Positions 19,713-22,839 of a stretch of DNA of 23,990 nt are shown in pieces (position 1 is the stretch's first letter; every line of letters starts with the position of its first letter). This DNA is from a virus, in IMG/VR virus record IMGVR_UViG_3300000115_000195, positions 1-23,990 of that record. One strand, 5' to 3'. The position numbers and the translations under genes were made by a program. The notes under the pieces are model-generated. The model ran no database searches, was not told the origin of the DNA, and was given only the letters and a program-made list of their open reading frames with translations.

Positions 19713-20171
19713 CTACTCTTCCTCACTAATAGGGGCGTAACCCAACCCCTCTAAAGTACCATCCCATTTCTTATTGGTAAAACGCCTTTGCAAATCTGTT
19801 GAAATTTTCTTCTTCTCGTTGAGTGCGTATTCGTGGGCACTGGCATATCCGCCTCCCCCACTCTTACCATGCTTGAGATGAAGTCCGTTAGGAACCATCT
19901 CGAAATATACCTTAGATGCCTCATAGACCATCTTAGCCACTTTGTCTACATTGACCTTTACAGAGACAGGGTGAGTGCTCCTTACCCCTTGCCTAAAGGG
20001 AGAGCCATCTCTTCCCTTCAGTAGTCCTCTAATGGAGAACTCTGCATTCTTCCTTTCCTTCTCATTATCGTTACCTGCTGAAATTAATGTATCTACAACA
20101 TCTTCCAATTTACCTAAATCAGCATCTTCCATATATGCCTCGACTAACAGTACTAGGTCATCCCATTCCAT
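19713..20171 (-). CDS. Protein of unknown function (152 aa), paralogue of the 170-aa protein at 21499
   Basis: Helical and acidic N-terminus, then basic. The C-terminal 70 residues (GKSGGGGYASAHEYA..., ending KKWDGTLEGLGYAPISEEE) align with the C-terminus of the rightward 170-aa gene (GKHGGISYSTADEFA..., KKIWDGTIAGL), so the two are paralogues. First gene of the leftward block after the iteron region. A TTTAAT box in the repeated promoter motif lies about 25 bases upstream, as for a leaderless archaeal message. Function unknown; its place next to the candidate origin suggests a replication or packaging link. Confidence 0.7.
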   Translation of the reverse strand: MEWDDLVLLVEAYMEDADLGKLEDVVDTLISAGNDNEKERKNAEFSIRGLLKGRDGSPFRQGVRSTHPVSVKVNVDKVAKMVYEASKVYFEMVPNGLHLKHGKSGGGGYASAHEYALNEKKKISTDLQRRFTNKKWDGTLEGLGYAPISEEE

Positions 20172-20344: not shown

Positions 20345-20581
20345 CCATGAGACAACCCATGAGACAAAGAGAAACGCCCCACTGCGACCAACTTTGCCCC
20401 TTCAGTCTCATGTCTCATGTCTCATCGCCCAAGAGAGAGAGATAAAGGGAGAAATAGGGGTGGGGAGAGAGATATATGATATGAGATTATGAGATTATGA
20501 GATTGAATAATAATAAATGATGTACTGAAAGCCTATCCTTTCAGTCTCATCTTCAGTCTCATCACCAAATCGTGAGACTGA
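20345..20581. repeat. Iteron cluster, candidate replication origin
   Basis: This occupies most of a 607-base gene-free stretch (20172-20778). Related copies on both strands include: CCATGAGACAA twice (20345-20355, 20357-20367); GTCTCAT three times in tandem (20405-20425); ATGAGATT three times in tandem (20481-20504); a perfect ACTGAAAG/CTTTCAGT hairpin (20524-20545); TTCAGTCTCATC twice in tandem (20540-20563); and an inverted GTGAGACTGA (20572-20581). Iterons of this kind bind initiator proteins at many viral and plasmid origins. It lies where the all-leftward block ends, and no protein frame crosses it. An operator cluster is the alternative. Confidence 0.6.
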
Positions 20582-20660
20582 CCCCGTACATGTTATATTC
20601 CATACTATAAATTATAACATAATATATCCCCTATATACTATAAGGAGCAATTAGAATTAC
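20582..20660. other. AT-rich segment beside the iterons, possible unwinding element
   Basis: About 80 bases made largely of TATA, ATAT and TTATA runs (for example ATTATAACATAATATAT) directly next to the iteron cluster. Such DNA melts easily and is often the unwinding element of an origin; it might equally hold promoters. No gene is seen in it. Confidence 0.4.
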
Positions 20661-20733
20661 TATAACTTCCCTAAAGCGTTTAGTTGGGTAAATTTTTCTT
20701 ACGGTTTTGAAAGAGGGGACTATAGTGTGATTA

Positions 20734-20768
20734 GGTGGCTTGCTTTGTTTTAGTGACCCCGAAGGGCC
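20734..20768 (-). terminator. Hairpin after the RPA-like gene, partial copy of the repeated element
   Basis: On the minus strand GGCCCTTCGGGGT, a CCC-UUCG-GGG hairpin, is followed by an ACAAAGC arm. The same 13 bases and arm occur on the plus strand at 23839-23862. The CCATATGG palindrome is missing here. It lies 10 bases after the stop of the 99-aa gene, so it is a likely transcript end. Confidence 0.5.
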
Positions 20769-20778
20769 ACATTCTTAT

Positions 20779-21078
20779 TCACCTCTCTAACACCTCTATA
20801 CTGCCATCCCTAGCGGAAACGATAAGTTCGCCCTGCCTCATGGCACACATACCGCCTTCGATTCTTACGACATCCCCTGATTTGACTTTCTCCACTTGGC
20901 CGCCCCATAGGACGATACCGACGATTCCAGTTTCATCCCTACCACATGCAGCCGCAATAAATCCGGTATAGTTTGCAGATTCAACCCTGCGTCTAGGGTA
21001 GCGTTGCAATACCACTAATTCTAAGCCGTCAACCGGTTCGTCCTGTGCTAAATCTTCAATTTTTTGTCTTTCAGTCAT
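20779..21078 (-). CDS. Single OB-fold ssDNA-binding protein (RPA-like)
   Basis: 99 aa forming one OB fold: an N-terminal V-D-G-L-E-L-V-V-L strand, YTGFIAAACGRDETGIVGIVLWG (D-x-x-G-x-x-G, then V-L-W), VKSGDVVRIEGG (G-D-V-V-x-I-x-G) and a final strand pair with L-I-V-S-x-R-D-G. These are standard marks of archaeal RPA/aspartyl-tRNA-synthetase-type OB domains. It probably coats ssDNA, next to the candidate origin. It overlaps the 90-aa gene by 8 bases and ends before a UUCG hairpin. Confidence 0.75.
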   Translation of the reverse strand: MTERQKIEDLAQDEPVDGLELVVLQRYPRRRVESANYTGFIAAACGRDETGIVGIVLWGGQVEKVKSGDVVRIEGGMCAMRQGELIVSARDGSIEVLER

Positions 21079-21370: not shown

Positions 21371-21432
21371 AAGGTACTATCAAAGCCCAGTACCATATGG
21401 TAGTAGAGGGCTTTGTTCTAATACCTTATAAT
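21371..21432 (+). promoter_or_regulatory. Palindromic promoter element, copy 1
   Basis: CAAAGCCC (21381-21388) and GGGCTTTG (21408-21415) flank the perfect palindrome TACCATATGGTA (21391-21402). Eleven bases after CTTTG comes TATAAT (21427-21432). In this copy the symmetry extends outward to AAGGTA (21371) and TACCTT (21422), so it may act in both directions between the 90-aa gene and the 170-aa gene. The expected transcript start is near 21455. Confidence 0.75.
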
Positions 21433-21498: not shown

Positions 21499-22011
21499 AT
21501 GGAAATGAACAGATTAGAGATAAAATTAGTTTCAATGGAAGAAACATTGAAATCCCACGATGCCGGTGCTATGGGCCCTGCTATTACAGCAGCCATAGCC
21601 AACTGTAGGAACGCAACCACCGACGAGGAACGCACCAAGAAATGGGGCGAACTAAGAACCGTCTACGGTATTAGCGGAAACCTGCCACAACTACAATCTC
21701 GCCAGCCAGTACTACCGGCTGCTGAAGATGTAGCATTCGATTCTCTCTTAGAGAAGCAAGTACGCAAGGCTGCTATGAAGTATGCAGAAACCGTACTTAA
21801 CTTGATTAATGCTAGAGGCACTGGTAAGCATGGAGGAATTAGTTACTCTACTGCTGACGAGTTTGCTGACCAGCAAGTAGACCTAATGAAGCGTAATATG
21901 CTCGCTAGGTATGCTAAGAAGATTTGGGATGGCACAATTGCCGGACTAAGTACTCAAGACTATCCAGTTCTTGAGGAAGTCCCTGCGGAAACACCGGAGG
22001 GCGACCACTGA
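21499..22011 (+). CDS. Protein of unknown function (170 aa), paralogue of the 152-aa protein
   Basis: First rightward gene. GGAGGAA ribosome binding site. Helical throughout; an N-terminal helix (MNRLEIKLVSMEETLKS), an alanine-rich stretch (MGPAITAAIANCRN), and a C-terminal block starting KHGGISYSTADEFA and ending KKIWDGTIAGL, shared with the leftward 152-aa protein. Codon use looks more GC-rich than its neighbours, as might be expected of a highly expressed protein. No function known; a structural or DNA-organising role is possible. Transcribed from element copy 1. Confidence 0.75.
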   Translation: MEMNRLEIKLVSMEETLKSHDAGAMGPAITAAIANCRNATTDEERTKKWGELRTVYGISGNLPQLQSRQPVLPAAEDVAFDSLLEKQVRKAAMKYAETVLNLINARGTGKHGGISYSTADEFADQQVDLMKRNMLARYAKKIWDGTIAGLSTQDYPVLEEVPAETPEGDH

Positions 22012-22057: not shown

Positions 22058-22111
22058 ACAAAGCCAAACAACCATATGGTACTAAATGGCTTTGTTTTAG
22101 TACCTTATAAT
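22058..22111 (+). promoter_or_regulatory. Palindromic promoter element, copy 2
   Basis: ACAAAGCC (22058-22065), ACCATATGGT (22071-22080), GGCTTTGT (22088-22095), 11 bases from CTTTG to TATAAT (22106-22111). A start of transcription near 22131 would give the structured RNA whose first stem begins at 22134. Confidence 0.75.
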
Positions 22112-22130
22112 TCTACAACGGTGCTAGTGT

Positions 22131-22793
22131 TATTCAAGTGGCAAGTTAGTATCTATCCGATTACCACTTGATGTGGTTATGCAACATAGGGGGAAATCGA
22201 GATGATATTTACTTGAATAGTAAAGATAACCCAAATAGAGATATTTGGGATTTTCTTGAAGAAGAACCCGAAGTATAACCACACTTCATGAGAGTTTGGA
22301 GCAAATAAAAAAATCTTAAGGGCTACCGTAGTCATGCCATGCACTACCTTATCCTCGCATCCTGTTGTTTTCAAGCCAACAGATAAAGATTTTCTCTCGC
22401 CCATTCCAAGGAGACAGAGCGTATTCCTAGCAGAGATTGTCTGCGTGTTTTTGGCTTTATTGTTATCAACTCTGTCTCCACTCCCCTTCTAGGGGGTCTA
22501 GTAGAACACCACGAGATGTTTTTTAGGCTTACACTTGCGGGCGCATTTGTATCATAGACCCCCGCTTTTTTTCCACCCCCAATACCCGTTGGACATTCTA
22601 GACAACAAGGGGTCGGGTGAGAATGACGGAATAAGACCGTAGTAGTAGCAATCGACTGACAGCAAAATCGGAATGGTTTTCGAACCCCTATGAAATACTA
22701 GTTAAATTAGTAGGGATAAGATACCATCAGTGAGCGCAGCCCTTTTTCAGCGAATTACGGAACACTGTTCCCGATTTCTTATTCGTGGGGTTC
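22131..22793 (+). ncRNA. Candidate large structured non-coding RNA
   Basis: This covers most of the 859 bases between the 170-aa and 49-aa genes, in which I see no credible protein on either strand. Stems found by eye (perfect unless noted): 22134-22141/22164-22171; 22172-22182/22273-22283 (11 pairs, one G-U); inside it 22208-22213/22219-22224, 22230-22237/22242-22249 with a GAGA (GNRA) tetraloop, and 22253-22257/22262-22266; then 22310-22317/22386-22393 enclosing 22328-22332/22343-22347 and 22362-22367/22377-22382; 22410-22419/22470-22479 enclosing 22430-22434/22440-22444; 22492-22500/22555-22563; 22574-22619 (bulged); 22686-22690/22711-22715; 22759-22763/22767-22771; and 22682-22688/22787-22793. 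It starts about 25 bases after the TATA box of copy 2. A T7 tract at 22566-22572 may split it into two RNAs. Confidence 0.65.
22537..22572 (+). terminator. GC stem followed by T7 inside the structured RNA
   Basis: GCGGG (22537-22541) can pair with CCCGC (22561-22565), directly followed by seven T. The same C run can instead pair with GGGGGTCTA (22492-22500). Poly-T tracts terminate archaeal RNA polymerase, so this is a plausible end or attenuation point. Confidence 0.5.
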
Positions 22794-22794
22794 A

Positions 22795-22839
22795 CAAAGC
22801 CAGTACCATATGGTAGGCTTTGTTACCCTAGTCCATAAT
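22795..22839 (+). promoter_or_regulatory. Palindromic promoter element, copy 3
   Basis: CAAAGCC (22795-22801), TACCATATGGTA (22804-22815), GGCTTTG (22816-22822), then 11 bases to CATAAT (22834-22839). It is the most compact copy. A start near 22860 gives a short leader to the ATG at 22871 with a GGTGA site. Confidence 0.7.

Follow-up and report, generated by a model that had tools for sequence, protein, structure and literature searches.

The plus strand of the window (the whole 23,990-nucleotide stretch of viral DNA that was analysed, which makes up nearly all of a 24,022-base virus record) encodes at positions 22131 to 22790 a structured RNA of about 660 nt, the helices of which covary between homologues, and two apical loops of which have conserved their self-complementarity while their letters differ by virus (UCUAGA, CCUAGG, ACUAGU, CCAUGG, GCAUGC, GCUAGC and GGCGCGCC). 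As the loops are self-complementary with differing letters, copies of the RNA may join one another, and on balance it is probably a large folded RNA of a magrovirus-like virus, whose copies would form homo-oligomers through homotypic kissing loops. New here are the self-complementary variable loops and the related RNAs (types B and B2) in other magrovirus arrays, which share a covarying closing helix, P-close.

Minus-strand genes in the left part of the window specify a chaperonin, a replication factor C subunit, an ATP-dependent DNA ligase and a TFIIB-like zinc ribbon protein, which we take to be a gene kit of the kind reported for magroviruses, viruses of marine Poseidoniales; this gene content and the relatives found in IMG/VR suggest a magrovirus-like source. 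From 21,392 on, the plus strand consists of short units, between which stands an imperfect hairpin, CAAAGC-ACCATATGGT-GCTTTG, in five copies. This palindromic element (at 21392, 22071, 22805, 23321 and 23866, then ACC(C/T)TATA) also punctuates short-gene arrays across magrovirus-like contigs. The promoter region of the RNA unit (22058-22112, plus strand) comprises the imperfect hairpin or operator ACAAAGCC-ACCATATGGT-GGCTTTGT (22058-22095), followed by a TATA-like box, ACCTTATAATT (22102-22112). The element pattern matched 54 stretches in IMG/VR, and among 134 copies taken from the matched, related contigs and oriented by the next gene, the TATA-like box was most commonly located 27-37 nt past the palindrome start. 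The element looks like a shared operator-promoter. An earlier sequence-only reading had given the RNA its own promoter; the palindromic element and TATA-like box are indeed present upstream, but since the same combination recurs in the 134 copies, they constitute the generic punctuation of the gene array. An AT-rich intergenic region of the window (20560-20660) resembles the region upstream of the homologous RNA in G004, a copy which may use a different promoter; the window's region may drive another plus-strand transcript (20640-20780). The arrays also hold several paralogues per virus of a 170-aa protein family (in the window at 21499-22008 and 19716-20171) with no credible Pfam or PHROG match. 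The neighbouring member was predicted by AlphaFold to be helical at low confidence (pLDDT 72.6, pTM 0.47); used as a query in viral contigs it found no relatives, the family being found only later by tblastn.

Four homologues come from other magrovirus-like contigs of IMG/VR: the unit was found by blastn in three, L005 (G014; 77%), L023 (G003; 83 and 79%) and L040 (G005; 87% in part), and the core is also present in L080 (G004), found first by blastn and nhmmer. A covariance model of the core (R1) found the other type A members, and matched G004 at E 3e-16, G004 being included in the model. Type A comprises five members, three of them close relatives. The unit is intergenic with a T-rich 3' end, and the fold of the region beat all 20 of 20 dinucleotide shuffles (z -2.8). 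It lies where the sequence-only reading had put it (22131-22793), except that its end falls near 22790, just before the next palindromic repeat, and all the inverted repeats listed there were found in place: three of 8 bp (22134-22141/22164-22171, 22173-22180/22275-22282 and the GAGA-capped 22230-22237/22242-22249), one of 10 bp (22410-22419/22470-22479) and one of 9 bp (22492-22500/22555-22563).

In the 5' domain, all on the plus strand, helix H1 (22134-22171; TCAAGTGG/CCACTTGA) shows an A-U to U-A exchange in G005, and H2 (22173-22282; GTGGTTAT/ATAACCAC), which closes the domain, is invariant in four members and reads ATGTAGT/ACTACAT in G004 (manual placement). H3 (22208-22224; TTTACT/AGTAAA) was kept in four members without covariation, its first pair being broken in G005; H4 (22230-22249) carries the GAGA tetraloop; and H5 (22253-22266; TTCTT/AAGAA) is invariant in four members. 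The core (22290-22398) is built of H6 (GAGAG/CTCTC), H7 (AAAATC/GATTTT), a UUUG..UAAAA bulge and two enclosed, covarying hairpins, H8 and H9; the UUU/A-rich bulge beside an A-U helix, in the window as elsewhere, could form a triple helix. As a short element, the helix of this type A core (GGGAG-UUUG..UAAAA-AACC/GGUUUU-CUCCC) occurs again in L236, L237 and L238, immediately ahead of a small zinc-ribbon-like gene. Downstream, the 10-bp H10 (22410-22479) with its inner hairpin H11 (22430-22444) differs on both of its strands in G014 and in G003, and reads GGGTAGCGGA/TCCGCTACCC and AATCC/GGATT in G005 (manual placement). The 9-bp H12 (22492-22563), followed by a T7 tract (22566-22572), is an optional peripheral hairpin, present in the window and G014 and entirely absent in G003. 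Hairpin (i) (22588-22606; GTTG/CAAC) bears the self-complementary TCTAGA (22597-22602) in its loop; P-close (22619-22780), pairing GAGAA-UGA-CGG (22619-22629) with CCG-AU-UUCUU (22771-22780), closes the 3' domain; and hairpin (ii) (22686-22715; CCCTA/TAGGG) presents a self-complementary ACTAGT (22697-22702) on a covarying stem. At 22775-22823 the T-rich 3' end is followed by the next palindromic element (22793-22823), and T-runs after P-close were also seen in G005, G004, L241, L223, L224 and L226.

Changes on both sides of a pair were found in 10 of 14 helices, the GAGA hairpin included, with few broken cells, in a helix-by-helix comparison in which the divergent G005 and G004 were placed by eye and H2 counts only through G004. 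In unedited MAFFT alignments, 94-98% of cells were paired in helices versus 26-58% in slid controls, and double changes exceeded every slid control. Depending on the alignment, 1 to 165 of 500 shuffles matched the observed covariation score, a control of some, though not overwhelming, weight given the three to five sequences compared. Covariation was clearest in H4 (one A-U to U-A exchange, in G014 and G005, beneath the invariant GAGA loop), H6 (to GGGAG/CTCCC in G004), H7 (UC/GA to CC/GG, giving AAAACC/GGTTTT in G014), H10-H11 and H14.

Beyond type A, a related RNA occurs in about 23 further contigs, in hairpin-punctuated arrays like the window's, either as a 630-690-nt array interval with strong conservation and covarying hairpins (type B) or as a shorter relative (B2). 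A second covariance model, R2, gave five matches in 50 whole contigs, all in contigs outside its building set (one of the five extends a locus that had earlier been met at the edge of a contig), and a third, R3, added L241 and L244. Sequence matches connect types B and B2, through L044 (E 4e-10) and through L225, which has the type B 5' part (E 1e-45). With these B/B2 models the 3' domain in type A had no hit of credible E-value, and no model tied type A to the other two types. R3 matches in L245, L246, L249 and L254 (E 2e-4 to 0.4) look like coding sequence, and E-values above 1e-4 from these models were therefore distrusted; R3 matches to the type A 5' part (E 0.025 and 0.26) were left unused. 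What R1 matched in G034, in G036 and in G038 (E 4e-4 to 2e-3) is a short element before a small gene (GGGAGTTTG..TAAAAAAACC..GGTTTTCTCCC) and not the whole RNA.

Common to types A, B and B2 is an architecture of hairpin (i), P-close 5' strand, hairpin (ii), P-close 3' strand and T-rich end. P-close, in which a short internal loop leads on to an inner helix, covaries across the three types: to the window's form (above) correspond GGAAC-GAA-GGAG/CUCC-GGA-GUUCC in G004, GAGAAAC-RAA-GGC/GCC-GGA-GUUUCUC in B2, GGAAAC-AAA-GCC/GGC-GGC-GUUUCU in B and GGAAC-AAA-CCG/CGG-GGA-GUUCC in L231, while in G005 (3' strand) and L241 (inner pairs) the pairs were seen by eye with the internal loop shifted by one. 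G004 has a plainly type A core, and its P-close is in B2 form with an identical GAA/GGA internal loop. All features by which we propose to recognise magrovirus large RNAs (hairpin (i), P-close, a self-complementary hairpin (ii) loop, a T-rich end and a hairpin-punctuated array) were found for the window RNA. The hand-assigned architecture and the intermediates G004 and L241 make a good, though not conclusive, case for grouping A, B and B2 in a single family; the likeness between A and B may alternatively stem from convergence or from a 3' module common to both. Members of types A and B are both located near members of the 170-aa family and a 112-aa Gp96-like protein (PF23790). In L009, L053, L027, L037 and L044 the type B RNA has a tRNA-Leu(UAA) gene at a distance of about 1.9 to 2.3 kb, and GOLLD too is reported to occur near tRNA genes (PMC12286853). 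Type B 3' ends (L009, L037, L038) have a further long hairpin past the first T-rich stretch, which covaries between contigs (CCATAACGGACA/TGTCCGTTATGG in L009).

Loop (i) is a self-complementary hexamer in all five type A members, with four sequences among them: TCTAGA in the window, CCTAGG in G014 and G003, ACTAGT in G005 and CCATGG in G004. From the window to G014 and G003 the aligned change, TCTAGA to CCTAGG, altered both ends together. In type B, loop (i) is nearly constant (UGGCCA) and offers no evidence from covariation. At site (ii), the B and B2 loops read CCTAGG, GGCATGCC, CCATGG, ACTAGT, ATTGGCGCGCCAAT, TGGTATACCA, GCATGC and GGCTAGCC, and also GCTAGC and GGCGCGCC; members fetched after the idea had formed have GCCATGGC (L229 and L230), CCATGG (L231), TCTAGA (L241) and GCTAGC (L244). 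A rule for this site (a stem of at least 4 Watson-Crick pairs, a loop of 6-22 nt and a centred palindrome of at least 6), written after most loops had been seen, held for 10 of 12 representative loops whereas 17% of random 76-nt stretches drawn from those loops' contigs satisfied it (P about 1e-6 assuming independence of the representatives, some of which are related). Three type B members, L009, L037 and L044, failed the automatic stem rule; p-values computed for the three members lacking a qualifying hairpin, being meaningless, were left out. In OLE and GOLLD, in-loop covariation is the signature supporting symmetric intermolecular kissing loops, the argument for OLE L9.3 and GOLLD L21a being that neighbouring nucleotides of one loop cannot pair intramolecularly (PMC12286853).

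Homotypic loop pairing reached at least 6 bp in every tabulated member, versus only 2-5 bp between loops (i) and (ii), which is consistent with the partner of each loop being the same loop of another copy. A distinctly less probable, though serious, explanation is that the structured non-coding RNA acts as a monomer (a regulator or a protein-binding RNA), its loops serving intramolecular or protein contacts. Stem covariation would be explained equally well, and type A loops (i) and (ii) share the core CUAG, by which a 4-bp intramolecular contact is possible; in G004 and most B and B2 members, however, the two loops match each other poorly while each is still self-complementary, and the loop letters vary between viruses, unlike those of a fixed protein site.

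Division into two adjacent RNAs, the first ending at the T7 tract after the 9-bp hairpin and the second starting near 22590, was an option of the sequence-only reading. A GC-rich hairpin does precede the tract, which is T8 in G014, and the 3' domain, which P-close closes, stands as a unit of its own. The tract is not conserved, however: G003 has only four T and lacks the preceding hairpin, for which reason the split is not favoured. With no further promoter element ahead of 22590, and type B keeping its 5' and 3' parts together without such a tract, we regard two RNAs as unlikely, though with a small probability left for the window itself.

Less likely still is that the unit serves as an mRNA for a small acidic peptide (22195-22278, ...RDIWDFLEEEPEV) with a long structured 3' region. 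No ORF of at least 80 aa was found in the unit, the longest being 75 aa (minus strand) and 52 aa. The frame in question, 27 codons on the plus strand (NRDDIYLNSKDNPNRDIWDFLEEEPEV*), is unbroken in four members and survives a 3-nt insertion in G005, and five of the six changes between the window and G014 fall at third codon positions. Against coding, the four members share no common ATG or GTG start codon, the comparison with G005 shows no concentration at third positions (2 of 6 changes), and one A/U exchange pair coincides with helix H4; moreover, G004 has no such frame, the peptide has no database relative, and most of the unit lies outside the frame. The frame is, with some doubt, probably not coding, and the earlier statement that the interval holds no credible protein frame holds for a frame through the interval but must be qualified by these 27 codons, open in four homologues. 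Very improbable is the reading in which the self-complementary sites act in DNA as protein-binding palindromes with RNA structure incidental, for although DNA palindromes (ACCATATGGT) abound in the array, sites (i) and (ii) lie within hairpin loops, the stem of (ii) covaries, the loop letters change while self-complementarity is kept, and the rest of the window RNA shows no excess of six-base palindromes (5 in 663 nt versus about 10 by chance).

Searches for known relatives were negative. Rfam cmscan of the window at E up to 1 found no family, its two chance matches lying outside the RNA, and the known classes (intron, riboswitch, RNase P, SRP) gave no match at gathering score; none of the ROOL, GOLLD and OLE models matched. 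The relatives yielded only tRNAs and matches below gathering score (no GOLLD, ROOL or OLE). A tmRNA was rejected, ARAGORN finding neither tRNA nor tmRNA in the window. Because most helices covary, no frame runs through the interval and no Rfam family matches, the earlier designation of a new class of large viral RNA stands. Annotated phages (INPHARED) held no similar DNA beyond 31-nt chance matches, and the exact core patterns were absent from GTDB species genomes; by these patterns the RNA looks virus-restricted. A broader core pattern gave at least 119 matches, mostly by chance, and was discarded. In the literature searched, no paper combined magroviruses with noncoding RNA.

Our preferred explanation, homo-oligomerisation through kissing loops, would run as follows. 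The interval would encode a separate RNA of about 660 nt, probably non-coding and made from the array promoter of a magrovirus-like virus of marine Poseidoniales archaea, its transcription and limits being predicted from the sequence. The fold of the RNA would have three parts, namely a 5' domain, a core with a bulged helix, and a 3' domain bearing hairpins (i) and (ii), each self-complementary loop of which would kiss the identical loop of another copy in a symmetric contact. Two such sites per molecule would give dimers, and then chains or closed rings or cages. By analogy with GOLLD, our best guess for the role during infection is a scaffold or compartment. More tentatively, this may be an archaeal-virus RNA whose copies self-assemble as a closed ring or cage by homotypic kissing at two independent loops, with contact loops repeatedly changed yet kept self-complementary, and, to our knowledge, the first RNA-only assembly outside bacteria and phages.

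Several known systems resemble the window RNA in part. The retroviral dimerisation initiation site is a purine-flanked palindromic loop that varies between isolates while self-complementarity is kept, and several type B loops similarly read AG-[palindrome]-NGA; the retroviral site is, however, a genomic packaging signal, whereas the window's sites belong to a separate RNA of a DNA virus, and no relationship is implied. The phi29 pRNA (about 170 nt) is likewise a viral RNA that oligomerises via loops, but these are complementary and not palindromic, and its tie to packaging forms no part of our reading. OLE differs in being a bacterial and not a viral RNA, and the window RNA has no Rfam match to it. 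Like the window RNA, GOLLD is large, ornate, virus-encoded and without a protein frame, and has symmetric intermolecular kissing loops (predicted for the window RNA) with in-loop covariation, and a conserved 3' and a less conserved 5' region (PMC12286853); it differs in its bacterial hosts and in its members often exceeding 800 nt, and the window has neither a tRNA gene nor an Rfam match. ROOL, also large and equipped with kissing loops, assembles into multimers made of RNA only (PMC12286853); the window RNA lacks a match to its Rfam model and differs in array context and promoter. The window RNA may work like OLE, GOLLD and ROOL while being, by Rfam model, a member of none: a sequence-unrelated class of large RNA in viruses of abundant marine archaea, which adds an archaeal branch, and in which loop covariation predicts the contacts, making the kissing interactions directly testable.
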